A stretch of 64,000 nt of DNA from Fomitopsis serialis (Eukaryota > Basidiomycota > Agaricomycetes > Polyporales > Fomitopsidaceae). The stretch spans positions 310,001-374,000 of the forward strand of contig NW_025954966.1 in NCBI RefSeq assembly GCF_022376445.1, given 5' to 3'. Of this stretch, positions 7,247 through 63,492 are shown piece after piece. The notes under the pieces are model-generated. The model was given only the letters and a program-made list of their open reading frames with translations. It was not told where the DNA came from and did no database searches. A program made the translations under genes and the position numbers. How positions within the stretch are numbered: position 1 is the stretch's first letter; each line of letters opens with the position of its first letter.

Positions 7247-7261
7247 TTTGGGTTCGGGACC

Positions 7262-16608: not shown

Positions 16609-16664
16609 ACTGGCCGTCCAGCGCCGTGATTTGCGACCTGGCCTCTGGATACCTCCCTCTGGCG

Positions 16665-18877
16665 ATGGCGGACCGTTTTGACGCGGAGATCGAGGAGCGC
16701 AGGCGGTCGAGCGGCTCGGACTCGGACTTCGAAGAGCTGAAAGCTGGACTCGATCCGGAAAAGAATGAAGTGGTCGTCGACGTCCTCCCCATAGTGGATC
16801 CCGAGGGCGGGTGTAAGACGCCACGTCTGTCGCCGTGTGGCGCTGTACAGGATGGCGTTTCCCCGACTCAGACCTGGCTGTCGAAGATCACGCGAATGCT
16901 CGCGGAATGGGGAATAGAGACGAACGGGTGCGTCCAGCTCTTCGCGCGCGAGTCGTCCGTCTGCTCACGATCGTGCGTTTCGCAGAATCGACCCTGTCCC
17001 TCCGGAGCAGCGGACGGATAAACGGCTGTACCAGCTGTTCTTCGTGTGGTTCTCCGCGAACGCGAACATCCTGACGTGAGATGAAGGTCTCCTGCGTGAA
17101 GCGCCCTTGCTAATGCTTTTCGTCGTAGGATGGCCGCTGGCACCGTAGGGCCTGTATTCTACGGGCTCGGTATCAGAGACGCTTGTCTGGTCATCGTGTT
17201 CGTGAACGTGGTGTGCGTCCGAGTGTGATCTTCCACGGTCTTCGCCAGCTGATTGTTCTGCAGCCTCAGTTCGTTTCCGGCATTCTTGTGAGTCGTGTCT
17301 GAAGTGACCTCATGACCCGCGGCTGACATCGTCGCTGCAGCGCAGTGTTTGGCCCGAAACTCGGAACGCGTTCTATGGTCCATGCGCGGTTTTCATGGGG
17401 GTGAGTGGGCACCTCAACGTCGTCAAATCACAAACCGACGTCTCGCTAGTTACTACGGCGCAATCATCCCAAGTATCCTCAACATACTATCCTGCCAAGG
17501 GTACCTTATCCTCAACACGATCATCGGCGGCCAGACCCTCGGCAGCATCTCCTCGCACCTGAACGCGACGCTCGGGATTGTCATCATCGGTCTCATCACC
17601 CTTGCGGTCTGTCTTTTCCTAGCCGTCCGAGTCAGCGCCTCGTCCTCATCGCTCAAACGACTCGTAGGTGGTCGTCAGCGGATATCGCGTCCTGCATTGG
17701 TACGAGACGTTCGTGTGGATACCGAACGTCATCGCCTTCGTCGTGATGGTTGCTGTCAGCGGGAAACACATCGTCGACGCGCCCCTCTCCGGAACGACGC
17801 CCGTGTATGGGTCTACCATCATGACCTTCGGGGCGACGCTTACGGCCACTGTCGTGAGCTGGGCTACGATCTCGGCGGACTACGGCGTCTACCACGACCA
17901 CACCGCAAGCAGGTGAGTGTGAGACGGACAATACGTATTGCGCATTGACGACGTATCGTTGAATTAGCTGGCGCATATTCATCTATACCTACCTCGGATT
18001 CGTCGTCTCCAGTGTGCGCAGAAACATCATGCTTATACAGATTTGCGGTGATTGATTTCCTCTCGCTAGATGCCAGTGCAGCTGATTGGCGCATCGCTCG
18101 CTGCCACTGCTGTCTACATGCCATCATGGCGTGCGGGCCTAGGAAACGGCAACAACATCGGAGGGCTCATTGCTGCCGTTCTTGAACCTGCGGGCGGCTT
18201 TGGCAAATTCCTCCTCGTCCCCCTGTCGCTGACTGCGCCCAGTCAGTGCGCGCCGTCGATGTATACGGTGTGCACGAGCTTCATGACTATAGGGCGGGTG
18301 TTCCAGCGCCTACCGCGGTTTGTCGTGGCGATTCTCTCTACAGTAATGTGAGTGGCTAGCATGCATCCTTGTTGCTGCGTCCTTCCCCCGGTCGCCTTGA
18401 ACTTCAGACGCTGACTGGTCCGTTCTCGCCTACAGCCTCATTCCTGTGGCAATCGTCGGCTCCACTCGGTTCTATGCTACGTTTGCCTCGATTCTCAGTA
18501 CGTCCAGACGTTTTTCCATGTCATATCACTAGTCTCATGCTCTCGCAGGCTTCATAGGCTACTGGCTCGCGCCGTTCTTTGCTATCGTCCTCGTAGAGCA
18601 CTTCTTCTATCGCAAGGGGCGCTGGTCCTCATACGACGTCTTTGAAGCGTGGGACCAGCCGGGACACCCGAACCTCCCGCGAGGATACGCTGCGGTCTTC
18701 ACGTTCGTCGTCGCCATCGGCGTCATCGTGCTCTCCATGGAGCAGGATTGGTGGACGGGACCCATTGCTGCTGCCGGGACCGGAGACGTGGGGATGTTGC
18801 TGGGATTCGTTGTTTCGATCCCAGTGTACTTTTATGCGCGATGGGCAGAGAAACGGTGGATTGAACCACGTGTATAA
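16665..18877 (+). CDS. Purine-cytosine permease (NCS1/Fcy2-like), 537 aa
   Basis: Ten exons can be joined in frame: 16665-16927, 16986-17075, 17129-17212, 17341-17400, 17450-17606, 17668-17912, 17968-18013, 18070-18347, 18436-18497 and 18549-18877. The protein reads WLSKITRMLAEWGIETNGID, then QLFFVWFSANANIL, VFGPKLGTRSMVHARFSWG, LILNTIIGGQTL, VLHWYETFVWIPNVIAFVVM, WAPF-type late segments (YWLAPFFAIVLVEHF) and ends in RWAEKRWIEPRV. These are signature stretches of the fungal nucleobase:cation symporter-1 family, plasma-membrane carriers for adenine, guanine, hypoxanthine and cytosine with about 12 membrane helices. Length is normal for the family and no break is seen. The tandem-duplication breakpoint falls in intron 5 (17607-17667), so only exons 6-10 are repeated at 35.8-37.0 kb. 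Confidence 0.92.
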
Positions 18878-20098
18878 GTGTCCTACCCCTGCAATACCTA
18901 CCCCGTCAATGCCTCCTGAACCGCGTACTGGGAGTGACCTCTATAAACACCACAGTCCACGACCTGCGCGACAGTCTCCGTTGCAGATCGTCAAGCCAGC
19001 CAGGGATGCAGCAACTCGAGGCGAACACAGCACGCGTGCACGGCTGAGTCGAGCTGAGCTGTCGTTCTGGGGTTGACGTACCAACTCTATTCTCGAGGTG
19101 AGGTCGGTGCCTCGTCGAAAACGATGTATACTGCCGGCGCGATCGATGAGGCTAAATCGGGAGCATATTGACAGAATCTCAGAAAATAGGATCCGCGGAG
19201 GCCAACAAGTTGAGTCTACGTATCGATCGATAGGAAGTCGAGCCACACTGATTTTAGTGATCGTCATTTGCATAAGAGGAAGCCTTGCAGTGAAAGCCTC
19301 GCGTCTTCCTCCTCATCGATCATCAACCAAATCGTCTACCGGCCTATTCGACATAAGTACCATTGGACCAACTCTGGACGATCTACAACTTGAATGGTGC
19401 ACATCATCGTCGATGGTCAGTCAAATTGTTCGCTTGATTCTCCATGTCACGGTGAATTTTGGCAGATGCCCTTTGTTCAGCGACCCATCCGACTTCAAGG
19501 GATCATCTCAACGACAGAGGCATGGTGTCTGTAGGTGAGTCATCTGCATACTTTGCTTGGCGCACCTTCAATCCGTCCGTTGCTGCTTTCGTCTTTATCG
19601 CAGTCGAATGCAAACCTTTCTCACTAAAAGTTACTCGCGGACGTACACTGCATCAAAGCAACTTGCAGCGACTACTCGCGCGTCGGTCGTCTCTACGTTC
19701 TCTCCTCCCTACCCTTTGTGTTACACCGTGGCTGTTTCATCAGCTTTTTACAGGCCCCTTGTGCACAATATCGTTCAGGATCGCCCCGGCAGATCGCTTA
19801 GTTTCTACTATCTTCAGGATGGCTCCGTGCCTGTTATGAGCTGCTCAAGAAAGTTGCTTTCATGGCAGCTCATACCATATGCGGAACTCAAGCCCTGTGC
19901 CTGAGGCCTGATTGACTTCCCATACCACTGTCATACCCTGCCGTAACCGTCTAACTGTTTGTAGTTAACTGTACCAAGCTCTACGCGAACTGATATACAT
20001 TATCAACGGATCCGGGATGAAACAATGTATCAAGACTCTAGAGTGGGTGTGGGTAAGATGCTAGATGCGAGGGTGATACAGGTGTGATATGTCATCAC
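18878..20098. other. spacer, empty-site allele of the Tc1-like insertion
   Basis: The first 330 bp match copy 2 up to the transposon; the match resumes after it (CGTATCGATCGATAGGAAG at 19219 equals 40419). The TA at 19217-19218 marks the unoccupied target. No gene supported. Confidence 0.65.
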
Positions 20099-21301
20099 TT
20101 ATGAGCTACTCAAGGAAGTTCCAGCCGGGGTAAGGTGGACGCGACATGCGCGCACAGCCGAGTCTACTTCATCGAGCGAGCCTCCGTCGTTTGAAGTCAC
20201 AAACTCGGCGACCGCATCCCAGAAGCCTTTGGGCAAAATTGGAGCTTGGTCACCGCGATGCACCGCGACTGACGGGGCTAGCTCTGCGAGGAACGCTCGC
20301 GCACGGATCTTCTGGATTTCCGCGAGCATGTCAACTTGCGAATGGAGGGATGGAACCTCGGCGAGCCCATCGACTATCCCAGACAACGTTGCGCGTTGTC
20401 CTAGCTGTGCATCCCATGGCCAGTTGCCGGCAGGCGAAGTTCCACCCGCAGGATACGAGGCTGCTGATGCGGAACAGTGCTTGCCAGGTTGGAATTGCGG
20501 CCCCATGTTGGTCTGGCAGTCAAGCTGCGACGATTGCTCTGGGATGTGGACCGCATTAGGCGATGGAACGTTTCTAGGTGCCGCCTCTTGTTGCTCGATG
20601 TAAGCGGAGTCGGGCGGCAGGAAAAAATGGCTAGACCATGAAGGTTGTTGGTAGGCCAGATCGTCTTCGTACGGTACCTCGTCCAGCGGAGAGGGCGCGT
20701 TTGACTGGGAGTATTGCTCTCCGATGTCACTCACCGGATACACAGCGGAGAGCGGCGCGCTCCTGCGCCAAGGTGGTATCCCGTCACCCAATAGCTGTGG
20801 AGGAGGCGACGGAACTATCGTCGCGTCCGATCGAAGGGAAGCTTGGGGAGCTTCTGAATGGCCAGCTCCCAGAGTTGATGTTGGGTCCAAGCCAATGTCT
20901 TCGACGTGCCACGACTTCAGGATCTCATTGGGAGAGGCGGCACTGACACGATGGTGAACCGAGCGTGGTTTCTTTCTTGAGTGAGCAGCAGTGTTCATTT
21001 CGGCGTTGCCCGTCTCGTCATGGACGTCCATCGCGAGTCGTTTCTTCCCCTTGACTGGCGGACAGCTTGGTATATTCTCCACATTCGGAGGGCTCAGAGA
21101 CTCTTCAGCCTTCCATAGCGTACCTCCCTTGTAGAGGTCGTATCATAGTCAGCCTCGATACGGTGTCGTTCTCGAAGTACTGCTAACCTCGGTAATGCCC
21201 GTAAAGTGCCAACCGGCCACTCCCATACCTTGACCCGGAGACTGGTTCTGTCGAGCGATAGCTCGCTCTTGTTTTTGCTTCTGCTTCTTCATTGCAGGCA
21301 T
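20099..21301 (-). CDS. ORFan nuclear protein, copy 1 (380 aa)
   Basis: Two exons: 21301-21188 and 21127-20099, intron GT/AG, in frame. The start MPAMKKQKQKQERAIARQNQ is strongly basic, followed by GVAGWHFTGITE at the splice. Exon 2 carries probable nuclear signals (VKGKKRLAMD; HSRKKPRSVHHRVSAAS), then ILKSWHVEDIG, a long Pro/Ser/Gln-rich low-complexity middle, and a conserved C-terminal block IQKIRARAFLAELAPSVAVH, FWDAVAEFVTSN, DSAVRACRVHL. I do not recognise the family and see no homeodomain, zinc finger or catalytic motif. The basic-disordered-helical layout suggests a DNA-linked or regulatory protein. The paralog at 41471-42583 shares both ends and the HHRVSAAS block but little of the middle. 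Confidence 0.65.
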
Positions 21302-22021
21302 CTTGTCCTATCTTGTCCTTCCTAGGCGAGAGGAAACGCTCAGATAGAAGTAGTTAAGGCGAGTGTTCGTGTTCAGCTTGGAAGCGGAATATAGCCAAGA
21401 GACGCATATGATTGGAGGACACAGCGTCCTACAGCCGCTCTTAAGTATGCGAGGCAGCGGCATTTGAACCATATCGCACGTATCAGCGGCGATGTAGATC
21501 GATGAGTGGCTCACCCATTGTTCGCCATAAAAGGACACCCATGATTCCGAGATCGAGGCAACGACATATGATGTTATGCAAGAGTACCGCGTCTTGACCA
21601 CGTCGGAAGTATGAGACAGCGGAGACGGACGTCGCATTACAGTCAGTAAGTGCAGCATCTGCGTGGCTTCGGTACCACAAAAGTCTCGTTCAGAGGATTC
21701 AAGCGGCTATCATCAGATAACTCACCATCTCTGATGGTGGTCCAGTGGCTTTCCGGTCTTTGGTCGATGATATGTTAATGGCTGCATTAAGTCCCCGACG
21801 AAACGTCAACAACAAGGCAGCAGCACAGTGTAGCTGGCCATTCAGGTGTACCGGATATGGTCATTGTTGCCTTGTCAATACAGAAATGACGTTCATCAAG
21901 ATCTAAGTATCAAAATCACTTCGATAAAGAGTCCTGTATACTATCAAATGCAGACTTCGAGTAAAGATCAGTATACGGTACTACCACAAGGCTTAAACAC
22001 GACCTACCAAGCCAAACACTA
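21302..22021. other. spacer
   Basis: Contains the upstream region of the ORFan and the 3' flank of alpha. Parts are shared with 42,584-43,404. No gene supported. Confidence 0.5.
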
Positions 22022-22631
22022 CTAGTAGTAGACTGAAGTCCACCATCGTACTTCTTGGTCGATTCCAGCTTTCGCGATCAGATTCTTGATGAAATCGAAT
22101 TGTTTCTGAGTAAGCCTCTTCTCGAAGTTCGTGTCTTTGCAGAGACACAAAATGTGAGCTTCCACATCTCCACAGTCTTTTGCGGCCTGTTTGACAGAGT
22201 CAGGCGCATCGTCATCGATAAGGCCGATCTTGTTCTCGAGGTAGTAGCCAATCTTGTCGGAGAGGTCGTCAAGCAGATTGACGACAACGCAGAAGAAGTT
22301 ATCAGACTCCAAGTCGTCGACTGGCACCTTCGGCCCACGGAATGCCGCCCACACCTGTGCCCACTGGTTGTCGGTGAGGGCGAATCCGAGAAGTAAGGGC
22401 CCACCACCGTTCTGGTGCGATCGAGGCGGAGGCGGGCTGACGTCAACTAGTGGGCCTCTTGCGGACCGCGGCTGCAACGATGGTGTCTCGAAGCAGGCTG
22501 GGACCCCGAGAGTCTGCACGCTGGCATCTTTGTAGCTATGCAATGTCTGATAGAGATATCAGGCTATGCAAAACCCAGGCAAGAGCAACGAATGGATTGT
22601 AACTCACCTGAACCGCAGCATCCACTGGCAT
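22022..22631 (-). CDS. Small unknown protein alpha, copy 1 (182 aa)
   Basis: Two exons: a mini-exon 22631-22608 coding MPVDAAVQ, and 22546-22022. The protein has a Pro/Ser-rich N-terminal third (VDVSPPPPRS), then LLLGFALTDNQWAQVWAAF, DDAPDSVKQAAKDCGDVEAH, LTQKQFDFIKNLIAKAGIDQ and the end RWWTSVYY. It is one of four paralogs (others at 29665, 43405, 48038) sharing the mini-exon gene structure, the LLLGFALT-xx-QW motif and the DDDAPDSVKQAA motif. There is no signal peptide or membrane segment. I do not recognise the family. It sits between the ORFan and the STS in both duplicated units. Confidence 0.7.
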
Positions 22632-23683
22632 CTTCCAATGTCGGGAAGACCGTATTGCGAAATCGTAGTATATTGAATCCAAATACGCTGAGCCTCAATA
22701 ACAAAGAGTCGCGGTAAGTTGGTTCTACTTCGCATAGTCCGTTTAGAACAGCTCATTACCGAGTCATTTGCGAACGCACTAGGTCTCCAAGTATCAAGGC
22801 ACGTTCACTTCGTGTGACAGCGTACACTGACAGTGCGCTGCGGGTCTGGCAAGTTCACAGAGGAGATTCTCTTCGTAGGTGCGTCGCTATCGCGTCGAGA
22901 GTAGTCTTAGGCTTGTTTGTTCCATTTCCCTGATGAGAGAGCAGGGGTCGACGTTGACATGAGGATCAAGACGTAATGAAGTGGCGGGCGTCCAAAATAG
23001 GCAAGTAATGATATTCGTCGAAATTAGGTCGCTGACTGCGGCTGGCAGCGCTCATCTTCATATTTCTAGCCAGCTGCGACTGTCTCCGGCAAATCGACTT
23101 TTTATTTCTACCATGATGTGTGTGATGGGTGCTTCACTGGATGTTCTCATATGGCTGGATGGCGTCTCATGGTCACAGTCATCACGTTTAGTCGACTCAG
23201 ACAGGAAGTCCGACGAAGATCTCGCGGTCACGGACATGCCTGTGAACATCGATACTGCTAGTACTTCTATCGTTCGGGATATGCATGTCTAACGGCGACA
23301 GTGCCAGTAGTGTTTACTAGGGCATGCCACGACAGCCCCATCAGCCTGAGTGCAGCTCGGATTCTAGGAAAGTACGGTTCAATTGATTCGTGGAAGCCAC
23401 TAGTACCACCCTAGTAGTACAGTGATACTTACTGTCCACTGCGTATGTGCAGCTACATCGAGGCATACGACGTCAGGACCATTCGAAGAATGGGGTTCAG
23501 TAGCCTCGTGTTGAATCGTTGAATCGTTGAAGCCCGGATGCTTCGGTCTTACCCAATTCATTGCTACCATCTCATGATCCAGTCACTGCATGACGGCGCT
23601 TGACTCTATGATGACTGGAACCTCGTCCACTGCCCCTTACTCAGATGCTAAGCGCATTTCTCGTCCCCTGCCTCTCCTGCTCA
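22632..23683. other. spacer shared with copy 2
   Basis: Upstream of alpha. Matches about 44,003-44,715 in pieces (same order, small indels). No gene supported. Confidence 0.5.
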
Positions 23684-25458
23684 GAATACTAGTCTACTCT
23701 ACAAGAGGCGTGAACGTGGGAACCGGAGACAAACGCTAAGACAAACATGGGAGACATTCTCATTGGCTGAGAGACGGACGCCCGAGCGCTGCCCGAGCCT
23801 CTCAAGCGCTCCGAGCTTGCGCAACTGGCCGCAATACCTACCGGTTACCTGGCATCCTTCATCACTCAGACTCGCGCGGGGCACTTAACTTGAGTCGACT
23901 TCTCACTCTGGCATGGGAAGGTGCGGACCAGCAGGGCAGCGGTAAGGCACAGCAATCAACGAGCAGCATGTGACAGATAATCTGGAGAAAAGCGCGAGGA
24001 GGACACGGACAAGCAAAGCGACGAGAACGAAGGGGTCAGTCAGTACTTTTACGAGTGACAGGAATTTACCGAGCGCAGCGATGGAGACGGGCGCCGTGAG
24101 TGCAGATACACACGAGCGCGCGAGCTAATTGCAGGCACAGAACGCGGCGACATGCAGCACAACGCACCACGATCGCGAGCACGCAGGGCTAATGCCCAAC
24201 GCGAAAACACGGCCGACGAATGGACCGCCGTGCCTGAGCAAAGGAGTCGGAGGTATGGGAGAATGGGCAGGCGCAAGACGCAGTCGCTGCGGCTACATGA
24301 AGCGCGACGCGCACGCAGACCGCGAGCGCGCCAAGCGAATGCCCAACACGCAGACACGGCCAACGAACGCGCGCAGAGCCAGCGGACAGGCGGGCGAGCA
24401 TGCGGGCTGATGAGCAGGTGTGGACGGGCAAGCGAGTGGATGGGCGGGAGAGCGTGCGGGCGAACAGGCGAGTGGGCAGGCGACAGCACACTGACACACC
24501 TCGACCGTGAGCGCGCCGCTGGGCGAACACCCAACGCACGCAGGCACAGTTGACGGACGCGCACGCAGCCGATATGCGGACCACGGGCGCGGCCATAGCT
24601 ACGAGCAGGGAGAGCCAGCAGATGGCGGGCGCAGACGGGAGCGAGTGGGCAGGGAAGGACGAATGACTGACAGAGACGGGTGAGGACGAGGGGATGAGAT
24701 GGGCCGGTTGAGCAAGAACGAGTGAATTTCAGGTACGACATGCGGCAACACCAAGGATGCAAGCACAACGCGCGCTCGAGTCTGCTTGAGCCCGTTGCAT
24801 CGGACGCGGTGCTGCCGGTGCATGAGAACACTCGACACCATCCCGCATCTCATGTAGGTGACGACGAATAGCGGAAAAGAAGTATGTTGCTATCAGATCC
24901 CATTTACTGAATGCTTCTACCGTGACGACCACTCGCATCACCACACCGACACGCCGACTACGACTACACAGGCATCCGTACGCTCCTCCCATCGAGCAAC
25001 GGCGCGGGCGAGTGAGAGAAGAGCGAACATGGTATGTAGAGCGAGCTTCTGGAGGCAAACAACGACTCATCAGCTTTCCAGCAATCGATAGGGTGGTCCA
25101 ACTCGGAGAGACCATGGGCATAGTTGTGCTGTACGTGACGTGTGCATATCACCCATCCTGTCTCCCTTACTGCTGCCCGGGGAGACATCTGTCAGTCGAG
25201 GTACCTCAGGTAGCTCCCGAGCAGTTGGTATCCCACAGACTGGCATAGGGCCACGAGCCGACTCCCGAAGGGAGGCGGCTGAGTGGCCTTTCAATTATCA
25301 GTCTCTTACGAAGTTGCCTACACTTGCGAATTAAACATCATTCAGCACTCTCGCCCCGCCATGAGCTCGAAGCTATAAGTAATGTAACCGGCTCGGAGAT
25401 ATCAGTAAGTTGCAATCGAACGCCGCATACCTGTAGCGGAGCACGGGCATCGGCTAGT
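23684..25458. mobile_element. 1.8-kb insertion absent from copy 2, GC-rich arrays inside
   Basis: Copy 2 is continuous here (44,709-44,726: GCTCAGGGTACCAGGAGAAC), whereas copy 1 holds about 1.77 kb between the same flanks. CTAGT occurs at both ends (23688 and 25452 regions) and may be a target duplication. About 24,120-24,620 is GC-rich with degenerate repeats of a unit containing GCGAGCGCGCC and ATGCCCAACRCG about every 150-190 bp; the same units, inverted, occur in the TIR element at 26.7-27.9 kb. The long frames across it are products of this base composition. No terminal inverted repeats or transposase found. Confidence 0.5.
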
Positions 25459-25739
25459 AGGAGAACATGCAACGCTCATGAATACTGGGCATGATGTCAT
25501 TCGTCCAGTCCGTCATAGTTCGCCGCAAGCGAACCCTTGCCGTGCCGTACCATCACTGGCAGTGGCAAACGCGTGGCAGAGCTATTGAGATAAGTAGCCG
25601 TTCGTGCCGCATCTCTCAATTTTTTTTTCTATTGAAAGCGCAGCTTCGAAAGAGCCGGAGAACGGTGAGTGCTGCATTGTACATAGCAATACGAAGGGGT
25701 GGATGAGTGGCTCGCTTCAACGAGCCCGACTTGAGGTTA

Positions 25740-26665
25740 CAGCGGTTTTCAGAACTATGCGGAATCGCGAGAAAAACGAAAACGCACCTCGGGCACTGGG
25801 CCAGCGCCCCGAGCCACGATTAGATTAGATGCAGTCCGAGTTAGGAAGCCATTAGATTGATACGACGCTGCGCGTCCCGCCTCTCCGAGCGAGCGATGTA
25901 ACAAGCTTCAGGGTGAAGTCGACTGTGAACAAAAATGGGAAGGGTATGTAAATAAGGCATGCAGAGGTCTGGTATCTTTTCCCCATCCAATGACCATTCA
26001 CTTTAGCATCGGATGGAACCACTTGATCAAATTTACTCGAAAAACCAACAGAGCTCATCTAGCAATGGTCCTCGCACTGGACCGTAATTTAGACAGCCAA
26101 AGATGTGTGTAAAGCTGTTTGTGCTCCACATTTACCCTGGTCATAACACCCAATGTGCACAACATTGCCCTTGCCATGCAACTGTATAGTATACTTACAT
26201 TAATTATCAATTCATCACAGAATGGGTCCTGCTCAACGTGCTGCTTCACTCCGGATTTCATTCATTCATGTCTGAAAGTCAAAAGATCTTGTTCGCGGAC
26301 TGAATGTATATGTACTACTTACGTTAGAGCAACTGAGTCGTTCGTACTTACTGTATGTTGTTTACATACTCAGCTACCCACACTTACTATATATGCTATA
26401 TTATATACATTGCGCGCCGCGCATTGTGAGCCCTACTTTTCCACCGTTTTTCCTGCTGCATTGGTGTGTCAGCGTAGCTCGCTGCCATCTTGTTGTCATT
26501 TACATGTAACGACTGTGATTTCGTATGCCTGCTGACCGAAATGGCCTAGCTTATCAGTTCCAGATTTGGCCACTATCTAATCTAATCGTGGCTCGGGGCG
26601 CTGGTCCAGTGCCCGAGGTGCGTTTTCGTTTTTCTCGCGATTCCGCATAGTTCTGAAAACCGCTG
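25740..26665. mobile_element. TIR element 1, 926 bp, TA target (MITE-like)
   Basis: The first about 89 bp (starting CAGCGGTTTTCAGAACTATG) are repeated inverted at 26577-26665 (ending CATAGTTCTGAAAACCGCTG) with about one mismatch. It is bounded by TA at 25738-25739 and 26666-26667, as for Tc1/mariner-type elements. The interior has no credible transposase, so it is non-autonomous. Confidence 0.8.
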
Positions 26666-26667
26666 TA

Positions 26668-27917
26668 ATCACCCAGCGGGTTTGCAGGGCACATTCAGAC
26701 TCCGCTGTGGCGCGGCCTCCCGTACGCGCACAAGTCGCGCGTCGCGCCCTCTTAGAGTCGCCAACGCCGTACGCAGCCTAGAACATACCGCGGGGGCGGG
26801 CACAGCGACGAGTGGACGGCTGGGAATGGTGCAGCTGGCGGGGGCGGGCGAGGGCGAGGGCGAGGGCGAGGGCGAGTGCTAGAGCCGTGTCAATACATAA
26901 TTCTAATATATTTGTTAATGCTCTATACACTCGCGCTATACGATCGACACTAACGTCGATCAATCAACACTCTATGGTCATTACAGAATACTTCAGTACT
27001 ATTAGTCCGACGTGCGAGTCCGCGCCGCGCGACTCGGACTCCAGCGCGTCGCGCACATCAGAGTACTACCTTCCAAGTTGTGGCCCACGACACTCTCGTC
27101 GGCTGCGTTTGCACGCGGGGCACTGGCCCTATGTGCTCGTGGTCGGCGTGTTGCGCACGCCCCGGCCCTGCTCAGCGTCGTCGTCGTCTCCCATCCTGAG
27201 CTCGCGCACGCGCTCCGTTCGTGCGCCATGATTGCGTGCTGGGCATTCGTCCAGCACGCTCGTGGTCGGCGTGTGTGTCGTCCCCTGCTTGTGTGCCCGC
27301 TGACCCGCCCGCCCACTCGCTCGTGTGCCTCCTCGTGTGCCTCCTCGCGTGCCTCCTCGCCCGCCTACTCACCCGCCTGTCAACCCGTGTGCCTGTCTGC
27401 TCACCTGCTCGACCAATCACCCATGTACTACCTGCCTGTTCACCGGCCCGCCCGCCTTCCCGCTCGCGTTGCGCGCGTTCGGTGGCTGTGTCTGCGTGCT
27501 GGACATTTGCCCAGCGCGCTCGCAGTCAGCGTGTATGCTGGCCGCCCGCGCCCGCGCGTCCGCTCGTCCAGTGGTCCAGCCGTCCGTTGGCCGTGCCTGC
27601 ACGCAGGGCAGAGGACCTGCGTTCTCGCGGTAACCGTGCGAGTCGTGCTGCACGTTGCCGCGTCCTGTACCTGCGTTAGTAGCGGGGTCGCTCGCGTGCG
27701 TTTGCGCTCACCTATGGGGACTCGCTCTCGCCCTCCCCCGCCAGCTACTCACCCTTCCCAGCCGTCCACTCTTCACTGTGCTCGCGCCCGCAGTATGTTC
27801 GTGGGCTGCGTACGGCATTGGCGACTGTCAGACTCAGAGGGCGCGACGCGACTTGCGCGCGTACCGGAGGCCGCGCCACAGCGGAGTCTGAAATGCCCTG
27901 CAAACCCGCTGGGTGAT
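26668..27917. mobile_element. TIR element 2, 1250 bp, TA target
   Basis: Begins ATCACCCAGCGGGTTTGCAG right after the TA shared with element 1 and ends with the inverted sequence CTGCAAACCCGCTGGGTGAT, then TA. Arms of about 190 bp match imperfectly. The centre (about 27,080-27,690) is GC-rich with degenerate repeats like those at 24.1-24.6 kb. No transposase; non-autonomous. Confidence 0.78.
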
Positions 27918-27989
27918 TAACCTCAAGTATTAGATATAGCAGCATGTAATGTCTACATAGGGCTTCGCCCTCAGTGACAATAACGGGAA

Positions 27990-40416: not shown

Positions 40417-40418
40417 TA

Positions 40419-44002: not shown

Positions 44003-45810
44003 CTTCCAATGTCACGAAGACCGTATTGCGAGGCCGTAGTATATTGAATCCGAAGACGCTTAGCCTCAATAACGAAGAGTCGCGGTTAGTTGATCCTAGT
44101 TCACGTAGTCTGTTTAGAACAGCTCATTGCCAAGTCATTTGCGAACGTACTAGACCTCCTCCAAAAGTATCAAGACACGTTCACTTCCGAGTCGTGTGAC
44201 AGCGTGCACTGACGGTGCGCTGCGGGTCTGGCGGGCCCACAGAGAGGATTCTGTTCGTAGGTGCGTCGCTGTCGTGTTGAGAGTAGTCTTGTTTGTTCCA
44301 TTTCCCTGATGAGAGAGCAGAGGTCGACGTTGACACGAGGATCAAGACGTAATGAGGTGGCGGGCATCCCAAATAGGCAAGTAACGATATACGTCGAAAG
44401 TAGGTCGCTGACTCAGTGACTGCGCCTCGCAACGCTCATCTTCATATTTCTCGCCAGCTGTGGCTGATTTCGCAATGTCAACTCCCCCCTAGCATGATGT
44501 GCGTGGTCTGTGCTTCAGATGTAAGTATATGGCTGAATGGTATCTCATGGTCACAGTCATCACGTTTGGTTCCGCCCTCCCCACTAAACAAGGTCGTGTT
44601 TAGGGTCTGCCTACGGGAGACTAGCATGACGGCGCTTGACTCTATGATGATCCTCGTCCACTGCCCCTTGCTCAGATGCTCAGCGCATTTATCGTCGCCT
44701 GCCTCTCCTGCTCAGGGTACCAGGAGAACATGCAACGTTCACGAATACTGGTCATGATGTCATCCGTCCAGTCCGTCATGGTTCGCCGCAAGCGAACCCT
44801 TGCCGTGCCGTATGTGCCATCACTGGCAAACGCGCAGAGCTATGTGAGATAAGTAGCCGTTCGTGCCGCATCTCTCAACTTTTTTTTCTATTGAAAGCGC
44901 AGCTTCGAAAGAGCCGGAGAACGGTGAGTGCTGCATTGTACATAGCAATACGAGGGGGTGGATGAGTGGCTCGCGTCAACGAGCCCAGATTAGACTGAGA
45001 AGCCGCGGAGCATCTCTGGCTATACTGTGCGACTTCCCTCCCCAGCGTGGTGCTACGCCACATGTGGTGTCTGGGTCGGATCATCAACAGAAGTTGTAAG
45101 TGTTCCGTCAGTCTGTTCGCTGCAATGTTCGCGGGTGTACATGTATGAAATTGACATTAATCCTACTGGACGGCATGCCCTCTTGTTCGCAGGCTGCAGC
45201 ACTGCTCACTTAGCGGTACGTCTGATGAGCTGCGAACAACACTGGCAGTTCACTGCGGAGAGTTATGGCCGAATATCAATGTGCCGCTCTTCTAGGTAGA
45301 TTCATGCCGGCATGCATTTCTCGCGATTGCTGTCGGGAATTGGAGGGTATCCTACCAAAGGCCAGCGGCACACAGATTATCACTGTCCAAATGAGACTTG
45401 TCGTCCGCGCGCATGTCTAGGTACGTAGTTCAGATGTAATAATATAGCAATTGACGTCTCAAGAATGGCCATAGGTCATTGGCTGCAAGCCTTGAGCACC
45501 ATGTAGCCCGCTTCCATGCTTGGAGAAGGACGCTCGCGGAAAGACAAATATCACTGGCCAGCACTCTCTCGCGAGACTGCGCGAAGACACAACATTCGAC
45601 AGAACTGCACGGCCGCTACGCAACCCATTTGGGCCGGCCCAAACACCGGCTCGTCTGTCCTAATGGCACGATTTTCTCTCTGGAAAGTGCGCGTCTTGCT
45701 TGCACAATTGGTAGAAGGCTCACTAGTCCGCTTCAGCTCTGGTCTTCCGTCATACTCAAAATCGCATAAAAGCAGGGTCGCTGGTACCAGTATAGCAGCA
45801 CACTTGAGCC
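44003..45810. other. spacer and STS promoter region
   Basis: 44,003-44,995 matches copy 1 (with the 1.8-kb insertion missing). From 44,996 to the STS start the sequence has no counterpart in copy 1, where TIR elements replace it. No gene supported. Confidence 0.5.
45765..45772 (+). promoter_or_regulatory. TATA-like element of STS copy 2
   Basis: CATAAAAG 39 bp before the STS ATG at 45811; the only clear TATA-like box in the upstream 100 bp. Confidence 0.4.
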
Positions 45811-46941
45811 ATGTCTTCTACTCCTCGCTCTTTCGTCTTGCCTGACCTCTTGGCTCTATGCCCGTTCAAGGCTTCCATAAATCCTCACCACGCCAGTGCA
45901 GCCGCAGCTTCGTCGGCCTGGGTCGACAGCTACAGGATTTTCCCCGACAGAAAGCGCGCCGCCTTCACCCAAGAGTGCTATGAGCTACTCGTCTCGTACG
46001 TCATCCCGATGGCCGACCACGAGCACCTCAGGATGTGCTGCGACTTCGTGAACCTCCTGTTCGTCATCGACGAGGTCAGCGACGAACAGGATAGCGCCGG
46101 TGCTCGCCGCACCGGCGACGTATTCCTGAACGCCCTGCGCACCCCAGGTTCGGACGACGGTTCCGCGTTGGCGAAGATGACCATCGAGTGAGTCCTCTGC
46201 CCGCTCAGGCCGTTGAGCCGTCGGCTGATGCACCGAACAGAGTTAGAGCCCGGCTGCTCCAATGCGCAGGTCCGGGCTGCGTCCGACGCTTCTTCAAACA
46301 CTGCGAGGACTATATCGACGCAGTAGCTCAGGAGGCCGAGCTCCGAGGACGTGGGGTTGTCCTTGACATGGCCTCCTACGAAGCGTTGCGGCGCGAGAAC
46401 AGCGCGACACGCCCGTGCTTGGTCCTCACCGAGTCCTGCTTGGGCATAGAGCTCCCGGACGAAGTCCTCGACGATCCGACATTTATGTCGTTGTATTGGG
46501 CTGCGGTGGACATGATCAATTGGTCGAACGTGAGTCGCTCCTGCTGAATTTTCCGTTGCACTCTGACACCTCGAGCAGGACATCTATTCATACAATATGG
46601 AACAGGCGGCGGGGATGAGCGGTAACAACGTCGTCACGGTGCTCATGCACGATGAGAACGCCGATGTGCAGACCGCCGCCGATCGCGTGGGAAGGCTCTT
46701 CGAGACACTCATGGACCGCTTCGTGCAGGCTCAGAGCCAGCTGCCGAGCTGGGGCTCCGCCGTCGACCAGATGGTCCAGAAGTATGTGAAGGCGCTGGAG
46801 TACTGGATTGTCGGGAATATCGAGTGGAGCTTCGATACTCAACGCTACTTCGGCCCGCTGCACGCGGAGATCAAGGCGTCCCTTGTCGTCCCCATCCGCT
46901 TTTGTAAACAGACTGAGGATGATGACTCAATATTGGGTTAG
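45811..46941 (+). CDS. Sesquiterpene synthase, intact copy (342 aa)
   Basis: Three exons, 45811-46187, 46241-46529 and 46579-46941, GT/AG, phases match; 342 aa is typical for fungal class I sesquiterpene synthases, which ionise farnesyl diphosphate and cyclise it using three Mg2+. Motifs: [10 protein letters not shown] near the N-terminus; acidic motif in [14 protein letters not shown] triad in [13 protein letters not shown]-terminal RY in DTQRYFGPL. The order and spacing suit the agaricomycete enzymes. The product cannot be told from sequence. A P450 or other tailoring enzyme is not found nearby; the neighbours are the unknown alpha/beta proteins and a bHLH factor. Confidence 0.93.
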
Positions 46942-48037
46942 TGATGTCCTTATTGCAGAAAGTACATGCTGGCGATGGCTGATCGTATATCACATGCCTT
47001 AGCCTTGAAAGCCACCTCTCTCCACCGTCAAAGAGACCATCTTTAGACCCCAAACAGGGGAGACTACGCCGTATGTAGGATTCTATTGATTTCTCTTCCC
47101 CCCCCTTTTGTAGAGAATTGGGCTGTGAATGCCCTTCGTACGATGCACGATTAGGTTTTCTTGCGCTCCGAGACTGTCCCCTGCCTTGAAAAACGGATCC
47201 TATTGGCATTCGATGATGTTATTACTACTCCTTAGACGCCATAGAGCACCACCCTGCGGCAGACTCACAGTCAAATTATTACGCGATTTACGAGTTACGA
47301 GTTGATCACGGGAGAGTATGCTAATTACAGCTCGTCGACGTCTACGTTGAATATCGAACGTTGAACGTCGAAGGGGGTGGTTGAAGAGCATAGACGGAAA
47401 CGAAGGAGCGCCGCCGTATGAATGAATCTGTAGGCTTTGCGTTTATTGATCCAGCCGGATGCACAGCCCAAGTCATTCGATGCACATGGAATAAACCGGC
47501 CGAACCCGCTCTGGCCACTCCTGAACGTTGAAAAGGGTGACTCCATCTTAATCAATCACCAAAGAAGTGATTGATTCAAGACAAGTGAAGGCAGCGAGTA
47601 AGCCAGTCAATTGTACAAATTGTTCATATTCCTAGTGAGTGTAGTCGGCGCCTTTCAAGTTGAATCATCGTAACACATCGTAGTGCGTGGCGTCAGTCTA
47701 GTCAACGACAGCTGTGTGTACTAGTACTAATAATGTACGAGGGACACAACACACAACGGGTGATCTGCGGGAAAGTTAGCTGGAGATTGAGTATTGAGAA
47801 TGTCAGATATAGGGAACGTCTTTGGGTGGAGGACTCAGATACTGGGGACTCGGACTTCAAGCTTCAAGTTGGTCATTCCAATTCATCGCCATAGTACAAG
47901 AGTCTGTTAGAGAGACGGACGAGGTTGTATGCCCATGTCATTCTACCCCTGGTCCTGCCTACCCACACGTTTCAGCGTCAGAATACGGCTTCAATCAAGG
48001 TAACGCGGACGGTCGCAGTACTGACCTGCGCGATGTA
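46942..48037. other. spacer
   Basis: Counterpart of 28,872-29,664 with extra sequence near 47,290-47,700. No gene supported. Confidence 0.5.
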
Positions 48038-48630
48038 CTAAATCGCCACACGAATCCACCATCGCGGCTCTTGGTCAATTCCAGCCCGAGCAATGTGATC
48101 TTTGATGGTATCGAATTGGTACTGATCAGGCCTCGCCTCGAAGTCCGTGTCTTTGCAGATAGATAAAATGTTAGCTTCTATATCTCCACATTCTCTCGCG
48201 GCCTGTTTGACAGAGTCAGGCGCGTCGTCATCGATGACGCCAACATGATTCTCGAGGTGATATTTAATCTTGTCCGAGAGTGCATCAAGCACATCGGAGG
48301 AAACCGCCGCCACGTTATCTTCCTTCAATTCTTCGTCGGTTGGTACCCTCGACCAATGGAAATCCGTCCACAACTGCTTCCACTGGGTGTCGGTGAGGGC
48401 GAATCCGAGTAGCAGTGGGCTGTTCTTATATTTATTCGATCGAGGCGGAGGTGGATTGATGTCGGCTAGTGGCTTAGGCGATGAAGTGAGTGGCTGCGAA
48501 CTTGAGCTGGCGCGGGCTGGCCAAGAGGAGGACTGGCTTTGCGCACTGACCTATTGAAATCGTTGATATGTTAACGATTCAGAACACGCGAAAGGACTGA
48601 CTAGCGACTTACTGGTGGTGAAGCATCCAT
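48038..48630 (-). CDS. Small unknown protein beta, copy 2 (176 aa)
   Basis: Two exons: mini-exon 48630-48613 (MDASPP) and 48550-48038. N-terminal Ser/Pro-rich part, then LLLGFALTDTQWKQLWTDF, a body (VLDALSDKIKYHLENHVG) that resembles alpha of copy 1 (LLDDLSDKIGYYLENKIG) rather than beta of copy 1, then DDAPDSVKQAARECGDIEAN and RWWIRVAI. Family of four; function unknown. Confidence 0.7.
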
Positions 48631-49125
48631 ACTGCAATAGTTTGATGATAGACTTGGTACTTAAGTGGCAGATGTTCCAGCGCAAGCCTGAGTGGGACGT
48701 GCTTGAGTGCCGCAGCACAATTTCGGTCAGCGCATATTTATGCACGAGTCCCAGAGCACGTGAGGCTGACCGCCACATCTCTTCGTTCTGGCCACCAATG
48801 ATACAGTTGCAATGTTATGTGAATTGTCTTCGCATGCCTTGCATTATAACATGCAGCATGTCCTCGCCCCGGGCATGCTCAGGACAGTATTCCTCCTCGC
48901 TTAAAACGAGACAACCCGTCAACAAACCCGTCGCCGGCTATTTACAATACTCCCTGCCCCTCCAGCCGCAGACATTGGATGAGCTGAGGACTCCCCTGAG
49001 GATGTCGTTGTTACTGACTTCTCAAGATCTCACCGGTCACCTATCGCTTTACCACTGTTGGGCACTCCGATCTAGACGATGATGTAATCATGACAAGCCT
49101 TGCATACGAGTTATCCTTTGTCAAA
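48631..49125. other. spacer; left edge of copy-2 cargo
   Basis: Matches copy 1 to about 48,790, then private to copy 2. No gene supported. Confidence 0.45.
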
Positions 49126-49892
49126 CTAGTACCCGGCGTTCTCGACAATATGCTCGATAATGTGATCGCATTCGGTGTATAGCGTATCGTACCTCATGTT
49201 CGTTTGCACTACTGATTCGAGATCAATGATGCGGAATCCGTAGACACGGCCACTTCTGGGTGATGCCAGACTAGGAAGACCCTCGAGTCGTTCATCCACC
49301 CACAAAACGTTCTTGGGCCGCAGATCACGGTGATAGATCCCGAGTTCACAGAGTTCGTTGTACATGCCATAGAGGTCCTCTCTGGTTCGGACAATTATAG
49401 TGAGTCGCACTGAGGTTAGAAGCGATGCCAGAGATCATCAACTCACCGCAGGTCTTGGCCGAGACCGTAATAATCGGACACAGGACGACCTACGAACTCG
49501 AGTAGCAAGATGCTGAGGCTCGCATTATGCGTCAAGCCAACGTTCCCGAAAAGCATGAAGGGCCGTGTAAAGTACCCATAGCAGCGCGGGATGACGCTTC
49601 CTTGCAATGACATGAGATGGTCATACATTGCGGCCTCTTCAGCGAGGCTCTGACCGTCGAATTTGGATTCCGCAGAGACCTTGATGACCATGGGTGGGTA
49701 GGTGAACGCCTGAGACGACTCGTGCGACGTCCGCGGAATGACTCTGTAGACGTGGTGGCAGCCCTCTTGCTGTATCACCTCGCTCAGTTCGAGATGGAGC
49801 TCGAGATTCCCGTCCGGCGGGAGGATAGGCCGAGGGTGCATGGCAGGGGGCGAAGTGAGAAAATAAGGGTTAGACTCGTCCGTAATGTTCAT
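49126..49892 (-). CDS. Protein kinase-like (APH/PKL type) protein
   Basis: Two segments, 49892-49444 and about 49408-49126. The first starts MNITDESNPYFL and has PPMVIKVSAESK (nucleotide-site Lys), EEAAMYDHLMSL (Glu of helix C) and ILLLEFVGRPVSDY. The second has ELGIYHRDLRPKNVLWVD, a complete HRDxxxxN catalytic loop, and FRIIDLES in the DFG position. This is the shape of the small kinase-like proteins common in basidiomycete genomes. The splice between the halves (GTGAGT near 49443 to CAG near 49411) is one base out of frame, so there may be an indel or another site. Upstream extension is possible. It occupies the place that a PD-(D/E)XK-like gene has in copy 1. Confidence 0.6.
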
Positions 49893-50449
49893 GATGGAGG
49901 ACTGGAGGAGTTCGGAGGTCTGTCTGTCAAAAGCAAGAGGGTTGTCTACACCATCACACCTCCTAAGGAGACCATAAATGACGAGTGATTTCACAGTATT
50001 CAAATGCTATGATGGTCCATGGATGACTGGAATGAGACGCTAAGCCAACCACGAGTCCAATCATCACTCACTAGAACCGGGGTTTCGCTGGCAGTACAAG
50101 CCTGCATGCTGCTCAACTCTGGTCGTGAGGCAGTCTGAGCAGTCGTAAGTCGGCGGATGCCAGATCTAGTAGTACTTGAGGTCGAATTGAAGGTCGTTTG
50201 GTGTTTGAACGTTGACAAGTCACAAGTGCCAACGCCGGCCCAACGGTACAGACCCGGGCCACTGGCAGGTAAGTTAAGTACATACTGACGAAGGCGCTTG
50301 CGTTATGAGATCTGAGATCTGATCCGGGAGGAACGGCCCGGTGAACCGATGAGCGAGCGAGTGCGGGCAACGCCTCCTCCTCTCTCTCTTCCTCCTGGTA
50401 ACTTCACTAAATATTTCACCTTCCTTCCCAATATCCTCACTCATGCACT
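49893..50449. other. spacer
   Basis: Private to copy 2. No gene supported. Confidence 0.4.
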
Positions 50450-50749
50450 ATGCCTTCAAAAATGTCTTTATGGTGTACCCACCGCCTGGCACGTCGAAAT
50501 CGTGCGCATATAGTCAACAGATTGCTTGTACAGACCTTCGCGAATCGCGAGGTCCTCCGTCCTCCCAACCACGATGATTTTATGCTACCCGATTCATGGC
50601 AAGTCATCGAGGCCTCCTTTCGCCCATCTATAGTACAACAAGTACAGCAGTCGCAAACCGGAAGCATTCCACCTTGGTATCGTATCGACCAAACACAACC
50701 GGGACCCGCGCTGAAGCTCGCGAGTTCTAAAGAGAGGAGGAAATCATAG
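50450..50749 (+). CDS. hypothetical protein, 99 aa
   Basis: A plus-strand frame starting MPSKMSLWCTHRLARRNRAH and ending LKLASSKERRKS; the middle reads ANREVLRPPNHDDFMLPD and SIPPWYRIDQTQPGPALK. Composition is protein-like and the ATG follows an AAAA-free pyrimidine-rich leader. In copy 1 only the second half is present (34,020 onward) and its frame is broken, so either the copy-2 gene is real and copy 1 lost it, or neither is. No domain known. Confidence 0.3.
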   Translation: MPSKMSLWCTHRLARRNRAHIVNRLLVQTFANREVLRPPNHDDFMLPDSWQVIEASFRPSIVQQVQQSQTGSIPPWYRIDQTQPGPALKLASSKERRKS

Positions 50750-50844
50750 AGAATGATAAGTTACCTATCGTACACCGTCGTCGTCCCCTCTAATCCGCCC
50801 GTCTGTCGTTCCTCGAGTCCTCAGAAGCATCGCGCGACTCGGAC

Positions 50845-52208
50845 TCAACGCCCCAAGCCCAACAGCGAACTCGGCGTCTCCGCCTGGACGCCTCCGCTCC
50901 TCCTCGCGTCCTCCCCCTTCTCCGTCGCGTGCCCACGTTCACTGATACGGGTCATCGACATCCTGCGCACCGGCGCAGCGTCCATCGCCTTCGGGAGCGC
51001 GAACGCAGGAACGCCCGCGCTCGACGCGGAGCTGGTCGGCGCGGAGCTCGACCGCATCGACGCCGGCGAACCGCTCATCTGCAGCAGGAGCGACGCCGCG
51101 TTCTCGTCCTCCGGCGTCCACGTCGGCGAGCGCGAGTGCGCACCCGCGTGGCTGTCGTCCTTCTCTTTCTTCTCCGCGTTGGCGCGTTTGGTTGGCTCGA
51201 TGGGGTGCGCGGGCGCGGGGAGCGTGAGCGCGGGGACGTCGCGTGCTGCGATGATGTGGGCAGCACGGAAGGGCCCGGAGGGCGGGGGCGACGGGAGCTG
51301 CGAGGCCGTCGTGGTTCGGGAGTCCGAAATGGCAGCGATGCAACTCGGGTCGACGTAGGGGTGCGGCAGCCACGCGGCGATGGACGGGAGGCGCGGGAGG
51401 GCGTCGGGCGGGCGGCAGCGGGGGCGGGCGAGCGCTCCGGGAGCGTGGTCGGGCCCTGTTCGGGCTCTCCGTCGCCCTTCTCGTCGTCGCCCGCATACTC
51501 GACGTCCTCGTCGCGCTCGTCGTCGACGCTGACGTCCATGTCGACGTCCCGCTCGGCCTGCACCTCCACGGGCCGCTTCCTCTTCAGGCCCGCCGCGGAT
51601 CCCGCAACGCGATCACGGGAGCAATGCGGGCAGGCCCCCGCGGCAGCCTCGAGCGTGCGCACCTTCTCGAGGAGCTCCTGCACGTACGTGACGGTCTTGA
51701 CGAGCACGTCCAGCTTGAACTCCTTCTCCTCCGCCGCCCTGCCCTTCGCCTTTGGTTCTCCAGGTGCTTCCCCCGCGGCCTTGGCCCGCTCCTGCTCGGC
51801 TTCGTTGACGAGGGTGCTCAGGGTGGCGAGCGTCTCGTTGATCTTGGTGCGGCGGGCCTTCTCGATGCGGGAGTGGTTGAGCTTGCGGAGGGACTCGCGG
51901 GCGGAGCGCGACATGGCCCCCGGCTTGCGGCCGCGACGGCGCTGGGCGGTGGAGCGCGTGTCGGGCTCGTAGTCGTCCTCGTCGGCAGAGTCAGAGTCGA
52001 GTGCGTCTCGCGGCGGCGAGCCCGCCCCGGAGATGGGGCTCTTGGGGAGGATGGCCGGCCGGGCACGTCTCACGGGCGCCCGCGACGACGCCGTGTCGTG
52101 TGCTGCGCTGAGGGTCGAGTCAGCGGTGTCTGTGCGCGGACGCTTTGCGCGGCGCGGCGGGTTGCAGCTGCCCGTGTACGGCGGGGGTGCGTCCTTGGCT
52201 GCGGTCAT
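50845..52208 (-). CDS. bHLH transcription factor, copy 2 (frameshifted C-terminus)
   Basis: Nearly identical to 34282-35634 through the start, the basic region (NHSRIEKARRTKINET), helix 2 and the acidic run. At about 51393-51396 a GGGG of copy 1 is GGG here; as read, the frame changes after AAARPTPS and ends at 51075 in an Arg-rich tail (377 aa). The original C-terminal block (SLLLQMS to SLLGLGR) continues in the other frame to 50845, with a 12-base in-frame addition coding SAPT-like residues. The DNA-binding part is unharmed. This copy keeps its native upstream region. Confidence 0.8.
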
Positions 52209-54133
52209 GGCGGGTCGGGGCGTGGACGGGGGAGCGGGGGCGGGTGAGTGCGCACACGACAGGGCTGAGCGAGGCGGAGATGTCGTGTGGAGGGTTTAAT
52301 AGGCGGCTGATGGTGCGCCGGTGCGAGAAGCGGGATGCGTGGGGGCAGCTGCGCGACGGGCATGATCGTGCCTCCGACGATTGGTCGTGTGCGGAGGAAC
52401 GTGCGCCGGGCTGCCCAGCCGCCCTTCGCTCGCCGCCCGTCCCTCGTCGCACGACCGCCAGCGCCGGCCCCCATTGGCTCCCGCGCGATGCACGTGTCGC
52501 GTCTCCGTTCTACTCGCCTGCCTTTTCCGGAACGCAGTGTCCAGCCACTCCTCCCGGCCATGCTGCTAGCGCGGCGGTGGCGGCGCGGTGGCCCCTGTGC
52601 GACGCTCCGAGTCGGGCCTTGTCTCCTTGCTCGCCTTGCCGTGGGTCTGTGGCCCAGCTCGAGCGCGCCACTCGGAATTTTACCTGGGCCATGCCACGCG
52701 CATTATTAGCTCGCACACGATCCCCACCCATGTGCAATGCAGGCGAAGGCGCATACGTACAAGATACGCAGGGTGTTCGCGGTAGAGTCATACGCCTACA
52801 AACGTTCATCTTCACATGCTGCTCATGGTCCCGCGCCACCAAGTTTGCTCCTACGGCCGACCGCCATTCTCGCAAGGGCATAGTCTTTGGACGAGACGCT
52901 GACTGATAACGCAGCTGTTTCTGGTAGGACGCCTGCCGCAAAACGTGTTCTTCTCTTCTCTGTGCGATCCAGGCCAGCTCGTCATCGGTCTAGAAGTTGG
53001 TCGGTACAATGGTGAGCATGTCTTCGGATACCACAACATTGTCTCGTCGACGAATAACGCCCACCGTGCTGGCGCTACCCCGACGAAGCTCGCCATGTTG
53101 CAATGAGTTTCTCCGTTCTTGTGCATCGCGTGGTTCTGCCGCACATCCAGTTCCTCGCGCTCACACAGCGGTATGGGAGACGCACCTCACGAGTCACTAA
53201 GACCAGAGTCCAACCGAAGGGATTCCTCATATCTGTTGGTCACAGAACGTGGTTCCCTGCTTCAGGACGCTGCCGTGGCCTCGATATGACGTGCTCGTCC
53301 GCATCTGGTGAATTGGCAATGGTAGGCTTCGACGCATCGTGGCGAACTCATCTCTCGACGACACGCGCACACCCGCGAATGCGACCGCGCGCTCATGTGC
53401 CTCTCGCGCGACGCACTCGGAGCCTTCTTCATTTGTTCTTCAGCGTCTGTTCGAAGGACGAAGTACAGACCAGCGTCCCAGTAGACTATGAAGGGTTTGG
53501 GTCTTGCTCATCAGACGATACTACACTTGCTTGCATGCATAACGCGCTGAGATTTCACTTCATACAGATTCCTAGACTCCACCCGCGCAAGATCACGCCC
53601 TGCGTCGCGGCCGGACGATGGCATGGTCCAAGAACGGAGACCGGGTCGTAGCATTCAGTCTATTGCCCGCAGTCGACCCGGAGTGCGAAGGAGCAGCTCC
53701 ATGAGGGGCTGGGGCCGAACTGAATGTGCGTTTAGGGGTATTCTTCCCCTTGCTAGGAAGGGGAACGGAGGCATCAACTGCGCCTCACAGGGCCAGCTCT
53801 TAGTCTCTACGATAGAACGCGAATCGCATGTGCTATGACTAAAGTATGGCTTTAACTCTCGATTACCCTCGATGCGTCTGAAGTGGACGAAGGCGCGCAG
53901 GCCGGACAGCCTGAGGTATGTATTTCCATTCAATCACGGTACTGATCTATGCCGTCCGCTCATTCGAGGAGTTACATAAAGCATTAGGTCGACAGATGTC
54001 GTACAAGAACACAACAAGTATTGTCTAAAGAGTACTCTGCTCGGGATACTTATAAGAACAATGGTAGCAAACCGGGTCATTCACAGGTCAACCACCCGCC
54101 ACAAGAGATCGTCCGCGCAAGAACTTCCCCACT
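52209..54133. other. 1.9-kb interval after the duplication
   Basis: Holds the promoter of bHLH copy 2; the duplication ends at 52,377. Frames of 60-180 codons between 52,400 and 53,900 show no recognisable domain. I see no supported gene. Confidence 0.45.
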
Positions 54134-63472: not shown

Positions 63473-63492
63473 AATCTTGCAATGCAGCAGCT

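Follow-up and report, generated by a model that had tools for sequence, protein, structure and literature searches.

The locus and its two units

We analysed a 64,000-nucleotide stretch of the genome of Fomitopsis serialis (Polyporales), a wood-decay fungus, which corresponds to positions 310001–374000 of contig C556 in a 66.2-Mb assembly of 806 contigs and is referred to below as the window. Its centre is occupied by a sesquiterpene synthase cluster (recognized by a terpene synthase gene, Terpene_syn_C_2) that includes a protein annotated as Fomitopsis serialis B0H18DRAFT_1101750. Self-comparison, together with the sequence at the junction, resolves the cluster into a head-to-tail tandem of two units (Table 1). 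In each unit the gene order is a permease-like segment, an orphan gene (ORFan, minus strand), a small reading frame that we call alpha (minus), a sesquiterpene synthase (plus), a second small frame, beta (minus), a cargo gene, and a basic helix-loop-helix (bHLH) gene (minus). The edges of the units are closely similar in blastn comparisons (17640–19203 to 35791–37351 at 96.1 per cent identity, and 34020–35802 to 50592–52377 at 95.3 per cent). At position 35802, the sequence that follows the bHLH gene (equivalent of 52377) meets the permease-like gene (equivalent of 17648). Because a reading frame crosses this breakpoint, the second permease copy appears to begin there, within the gene.

The names of the bHLH and terpene synthase genes are supported by Pfam, but permease, PD-(D/E)XK-like, and kinase-like, terms used in the preliminary description of this stretch, are names by presumed resemblance: none of the three had a Pfam match above the cut-off in the selected frames scanned, and one frame of each cargo gave no significant match in the PDB. 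The closest solved structure to a synthase exon is AcCop4 of Antrodia cinnamomea (8gr5; E-value 1.8e-40).

Divergence between the units

The preliminary description reported near-identical ends around a strongly diverged core, and this pattern is confirmed both by blastn self-comparison and by the identity between the units, calculated along unit 2 in steps of 200 bp and given here in its coordinates. Specifically, identity is 91–100 per cent in the permease part, which is followed by an insertion in unit 2, then 51–86 per cent at 40402–41201, 44–74 per cent across the ORFan and its borders (41202–43201), and 74–93 per cent in the alpha stretch up to 45001. It is 85–96 per cent in the synthase, 58–84 per cent from the end of the synthase to the end of beta, and 90–100 per cent in the bHLH gene. 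Divergence is thus not uniform along the units; uniformity was the outcome that the preliminary description had named as contrary to its view. Some of its details do not hold. The ORFans were said to align only at their ends, but the alignment spans the whole main exon, at 44 per cent identity, with the best blocks at columns 91–120 (20/30) and 331–360 (21/30) and the blocks in between ranging from 8/30 to 13/27. The 5' end is missing from synthase copy 1; in its place unit 1 has two inverted-repeat elements, which leave a gap in the alignment. The cargo genes do differ completely between the units, which cannot be aligned there, but a PD-(D/E)XK-like cargo also occurs in the single-unit contig introduced below.

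Synonymous divergence (dS) between the units follows the same course. It reaches 1.10 in the ORFan, 0.47 in beta, and 0.33 in alpha, is 0.17 and 0.22 in the synthase exons and 0.035 in the first 270 amino acids of the bHLH protein, and falls to 0 in one permease exon of 114 codons. For comparison, three presumed haplotig pairs elsewhere in the assembly are 99.58, 99.16, 99.27, and 99.82 per cent identical in four comparisons. The core classes therefore seem far older, with dS up to 1.1, than either this background or the ends of the tandem. They form a narrow island of divergence in surroundings of low diversity, although assembly may account in part for the identical outer ends.

No copies of the ORFan or of alpha and beta were found elsewhere in the assembly at the sensitivity used. 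All four ORFan matches and all four matches to the PD-(D/E)XK-like gene lie on C556 or on contig C430, as do all six copies of alpha and beta, which belong to this locus. The protein collection contained no homolog of the ORFan outside the F. serialis genome at word-based sensitivity, and none of alpha. The structure predicted for alpha is an alpha/beta-type fold of moderate confidence that has no significant structural match in the PDB.

A single-unit version of the locus

Contig C430 (26,952 bp, same assembly) matches both flanks, from window position 14547 to 60979, and has one unit between them. Its positions 1–4329 correspond to window 14547–18876, positions 4704–5024 and 5023–13444 to 37034–37353 and 40417–48808 of unit 2 (without the transposon), positions 13426–18364 to 30823–35802 of unit 1, and positions 16565–26952 to 50592–60979. 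The left flank in C430 runs straight into the core of unit 2, which we term class 2, the core of unit 1 being class 1. Because C430 joins the left flank to a single unit with a class-2 core, the two cores appear to act as alleles at this left-anchored position.

The C430 core is 98.06 per cent identical to that of unit 2, gaps excluded, and the dS of the C430 ORFan is 0.011 to unit 2; across the classes it is 0.96 and 1.10. C430 combines the class-2 core with a PD-(D/E)XK-like cargo of the unit 1 type and a third version of the permease and bHLH genes (bHLH dS to unit 1, 0.076). Along the cargo region, 1183/1481 bases (79.9 per cent) are identical to unit 1, followed by 1570/1584 (99.1 per cent), with an abrupt edge near 32390; the C430 relative of the cargo gene is a single open frame with 75 per cent amino-acid identity in its second part.

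On the left, the window and C430 have no mismatch in 1500 positions (14547–16046), and differences climb toward the locus, to 33/499 at 17047–17546. On the right, 15 of 8585 sites differ (11 within the first 2.5 kb, four within the following 6.1 kb), and there are 19 indels, nine of which are homopolymer-like. C430 presumably represents the other nucleus of the same individual. Identical outer ends could also stem from an assembler closing a bubble.

Exchange between copies and the age of the ends

The preliminary description considered alpha and beta to be scrambled between the units. An exchange between alpha2 and beta1 is indeed apparent, in the form of a single clean tract of 334 bp rather than scrambling. 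Over 43422–43755, alpha2 and beta1 are 92.8 per cent identical, compared with 46.9 and 38.7 per cent on either side. Position-type sites number 142 outside the tract and 10 inside, and swap-type sites three outside and 28 inside (Fisher's exact test, treating sites as independent; P-value = 2e-21). One domain transfer, between classes and between paralogues, would be enough to produce this tract.

For the ends of the units, we counted the sites at which two of unit 1, unit 2, and C430 agree against the third. In the bHLH segment, the counts are 20 (units 1 and 2), 41 (unit 1 and C430), and 22 (unit 2 and C430); the first 200 bp hold 25 of the 41, and without them the pattern is star-like (18, 19, and 16 sites for units 1 and 2, unit 2 and C430, and unit 1 and C430, respectively). 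In the permease segment, the leading 500 bp give 10, 14, and 11 sites in the original order. Such star-like ends, with about equal distances among unit 1, unit 2, and C430, would fit a tandem built from two haplotypes. The exception is 18148–18876, where 36 sites unite units 1 and 2 against C430 and no site supports either other pairing. This substitution-free stretch of 729 bp points to later conversion between the copies, or to a common recent source. Homogenization of the edges by conversion, one of the origins offered in the preliminary description, is true in part, as this stretch shows.

Parts of the units also recur at a second locus. Contigs C301 and C637, which are 99.1–99.8 per cent identical and presumed haplotypes of each other, match the window in a synthase block (98.1 per cent), the kinase-like gene (81–83 per cent), and a block of the bHLH gene plus the third synthase of the window (98.3 per cent); genome searches found neither the ORFan nor alpha or beta on them. 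The closest relative of bHLH copy 2 is on C301 (98.07 per cent). Genome-wide, the kinase-like gene gives 11 matches, including a piece on C372 at 88 per cent. The C301/C637 locus probably exchanged the kinase-like cargo with the present one, as donor or recipient.

Origin of the tandem

With somewhat greater confidence than doubt, we propose that the locus comprises two old core classes, that a duplication captured both in tandem, and that long-term balancing selection has maintained them. On this view, the individual carries two old versions of the core, whose divergence predates the tandem. An exchange that was both illegitimate and unequal would have combined two different haplotypes, placing a class-1 and a class-2 unit in tandem on one chromosome, and in the other nucleus a class-2 unit would stand alone, with another cargo, as seen in C430. 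Long-term balancing selection, with the ORFan and the small frames beside it at its centre, would most likely maintain the classes, while crossover and conversion would hold the ends alike and shuffle blocks, giving rise to the alpha2/beta1 transfer and to the class-2 core with PD-(D/E)XK-like cargo in C430. Through such reshuffling of blocks, unit 2 would have come to have its kinase-like cargo and bHLH gene in common with the second locus. The selection and the order of events are inferred from sequence comparison, and balancing selection would most naturally explain why one individual has two classes of such age. The interpretation given in the preliminary description is upheld in part: of its proposed origins, a duplication that captured two alleles is the best supported, by the single class-2 unit at the same left flank in C430 and by the star-like ends, and the divergence observed in one individual (ORFan dS 1.1) is consistent with a balanced, multi-allelic locus.

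Several observations weigh against this proposal. The sample is one individual and one assembly, and several copies look broken: synthase 1 is truncated, the cargo gene of unit 1 and the second bHLH copy are each split between frames, the end of the class-2 ORFan is shortened by a four-base difference from unit 1 and C430, the C430 ORFan is divided over two frames, and alpha1 runs into a stop inside the matched stretch. That alpha and beta are genes is itself suggested by six open frames. Wherever a valid comparison gives a defined dN/dS ratio, that ratio is below 1 (for example, 0.39 for the ORFan, 0.53 for alpha, 0.50 and 0.61 for the PD-(D/E)XK-like gene, and 0.69 for the kinase-like gene), so that there is no average sign of diversifying selection. 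The 729-bp stretch means that the edges have also been converted. Other loci joined the exchanges: bHLH copy 2 and C301 share 21 sites against unit 1 and C430 (other splits, four and one), and relatives of the kinase-like gene lie on eight contigs besides C556, C301, and C637. Finally, contig C657 (16,384 bp) matches 56128–57631 at 100 per cent and diverges at 57632, where the window and C430 have a repeated element, which implies either a phase switch of C430 within the identical flank (two nuclei) or more than two haplotypes.

The last of these points bears on whether units of two nuclei were falsely joined in assembly, an origin also raised in the preliminary description. C657 leaves room for more than two haplotypes, and the assembly, with its 806 contigs, has apparent haplotigs beside main contigs. 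However, joining by overlap requires common sequence, and the junction offers one base. Unit 2 as a whole is also unlike C430: their cores differ by 2 per cent, a 3-kb transposase insertion is found only in unit 2, and the cargoes are different. With three versions of the unit (unit 1, unit 2, and C430) and a one-base junction, a plain mis-join of two haplotypes therefore fits poorly. The ORFan search matched C556 and C430 only; the ORFan–alpha core of unit 2 is on no further contig among the matches listed, a weak argument because the C430 core is unlisted too. We consider an artefact improbable. It is unlikely, though a more serious contender, that an old tandem duplication diverged in place as paralogues, conversion keeping the ends alike and a later permease–permease crossover yielding C430. 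The conversion-like tract between the permease copies (18148–18876) would be expected from such a history, and the alpha2/beta1 tract is an exchange between non-allelic copies. Yet the likeness of the ends reaches both breakpoints at haplotype-level divergence and is star-like with C430, and a crossover between permeases alone does not give C430 a PD-(D/E)XK-like cargo that differs by 20 per cent from that of unit 1.

Balanced alleles may also be absent altogether, if this is a recombination-prone, transposon-rich synthase cluster in which blocks are reshuffled with dispersed copies and the divergence reflects fast turnover of young genes or replacement by paralogues. This deserves some credence, although we find it rather unlikely. 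The 98.1 and 98.3 per cent blocks on C301 and C637, with a much less similar kinase-like gene between them, are what reshuffling would leave, as are the affinity of bHLH copy 2 to C301 and the dispersal of the kinase-like gene; in addition, several elements have copies at 99–100 per cent elsewhere and so are recent insertions. Nevertheless, matches to the ORFan, alpha and beta, and the PD-(D/E)XK-like gene are confined to C556 and C430, and the divergence peak does not come from another detected copy. If one class had entered by introgression from a related species, a diverged block between similar flanks would result, but dS differs approximately five-fold within the block (ORFan 1.1, synthase 0.2), which argues against a single time of entry and makes this origin very improbable.

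Relation to known systems

A homeodomain (HD) or STE3 mating locus is ruled out by position, as matches to these families lie on other contigs and none on C556: a six-frame search of the assembly returned at least three matches to PF05920 (C468, C596, and C112) and at least 53 to PF02076 (C734, C370, C287, C541, and C223). The STE3 matches spread across C734, C287, and C370 are probably haplotypes of the pheromone-receptor mating locus. In having old allele classes in a mushroom-forming fungus, our locus resembles the basidiomycete MATA/MATB loci as portrayed in a Trichaptum study (PMC8970355); it differs in that C556 has no Homeobox_KN or STE3 match.

The het-B locus of Podospora anserina (PMC10890737) has adjacent genes (a HET-domain gene and a PII-like gene) present as highly divergent allelic variants, one of them encoding a small protein, in a narrow island of divergence; the locus is proven by genetics, and it shows trans-species polymorphism. 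Our locus likewise has adjacent diverged genes in a narrow island between ordinary flanks. Unlike het-B, it has no HET domain in the frames scanned, its alpha model has no significant PDB match, and it is known from one individual. Around het genes of Aspergillus fumigatus (PMC11138114), divergence falls off sharply over a few hundred bases; these genes have a proven function, and their alleles occur at even frequencies. The edge at 32390 is similarly abrupt; in contrast to those genes, the region here spans several genes and has two classes in tandem.

Among sesquiterpene synthases, the nearest solved relative of one synthase exon is of the Cop4 type (AcCop4), but the divergence peak here is in the ORFan and not in the synthase. 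We know of no two-class loci around Cop4-type synthase genes.

Somatic incompatibility in basidiomycetes is poorly understood and perhaps involves three to five loci, according to one review (PMC8229728). It is a long shot that the locus is a non-mating, multi-allelic recognition locus, with the ORFan and an exchangeable alpha/beta domain as its specificity parts and the tandem as a natural two-specificity chromosome; a role of ORFan, alpha, and beta in strain recognition is a guess. If the classes are balanced, the locus would be a candidate non-mating multi-allelic locus of a basidiomycete with named orphan genes. Unequal exchange seemingly placed two old alleles on one chromosome, with both edges readable in one assembly. 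Even if recombination alone was at work, the case shows that old alleles can look like tandem paralogues when an assembly contains two haplotypes.

Features of the window and neighbouring elements

Table 1. Positions of the genes and elements in the window.
Feature	Position	Strand	Remarks
Unit 1 of tandem	17648..35802	.	Self-comparison, junction
Unit 2 of tandem	35802..52377	.	Self-comparison, junction
Tandem junction	35802..35802	.	Read from sequences; 1-base overlap
Permease-like gene, part within unit 1	17648..19205	+	18148–18876 without substitution relative to unit 2
Permease-like copy of unit 2, apparently starting inside gene	35802..37353	+	
ORFan class 1 (P0001, B0H18DRAFT_1101750, 380 aa)	20102..21307	-	
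ORFan class 2 (P0002, B0H18DRAFT_1207763, 368 aa)	41474..42700	-	First residues further upstream
alpha1, small locus-specific reading frame	22025..22558	-	
alpha2	43408..43980	-	
Sesquiterpene synthase 1, 5'-truncated	27994..29005	+	
Sesquiterpene synthase 2	45808..46938	+	Pfam Terpene_syn_C_2, E-value 9.1e-26; nearest solved structure AcCop4 (8gr5)
beta1	29668..30153	-	29679–30012 92.8% identical to alpha2; conversion-like tract
beta2	48041..48550	-	
PD-(D/E)XK-like cargo, unit 1, two reading frames	31229..32460	+	Family name by resemblance
Kinase-like cargo, unit 2	48889..50038	-	82% relatives on C301, C637; family name by resemblance
bHLH copy 1, upstream part severed at junction	34285..35802	-	Pfam HLH, E-value 1.6e-06
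bHLH copy 2	50592..52377	-	Split by frame difference; copies of unit 1, C430, C301 open
Two inverted-repeat elements, unit 1	25735–26668 and 26666–27928	.	Self-comparison, genome copies
Recent transposon insertion in unit 2	37351..40419	+	Pfam DDE_3, E-value 3.1e-09, frame 38044–40167
Third, older sesquiterpene synthase, right flank	54137..55257	-	74% DNA identity to other two
Older PD-(D/E)XK-like relative, right flank	55752..57177	-	33–39% amino-acid identity

The transposon of unit 2 is absent from C430, and its insertion appears recent because copies exist at 100 per cent identity on C2 and 99 per cent on C525. The first inverted-repeat element of unit 1 is 934 bp long with inverted ends of approximately 94 bp, and its copies at 99–100 per cent on C185, C268, and C135 suggest recent activity. 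Near the left end of the window, the long open frame 984–2402 is one of a multi-copy family; it has no Pfam match that reaches the cut-off, and there are relatives at 68–76 per cent on C540, C199, C256, and C235 and elsewhere on C556. The right end, 57632–64000, is the start of a large repeated element with copies at 100 per cent on C301 (183120–189488), 98 per cent on C36, and 95 per cent on C28; it contains an integrase-like frame (59633–60445; Pfam rva_4) and short tandem repeats (57757–58083). Positions 1–5776 of C657 represent an alternative right flank, in which a 4.3-kb insertion interrupts the older PD-(D/E)XK-like gene. In the window, that gene and the third synthase form an inverted pair (54137–57177), which suggests an ancestral pairing of synthase and PD-(D/E)XK-like gene.

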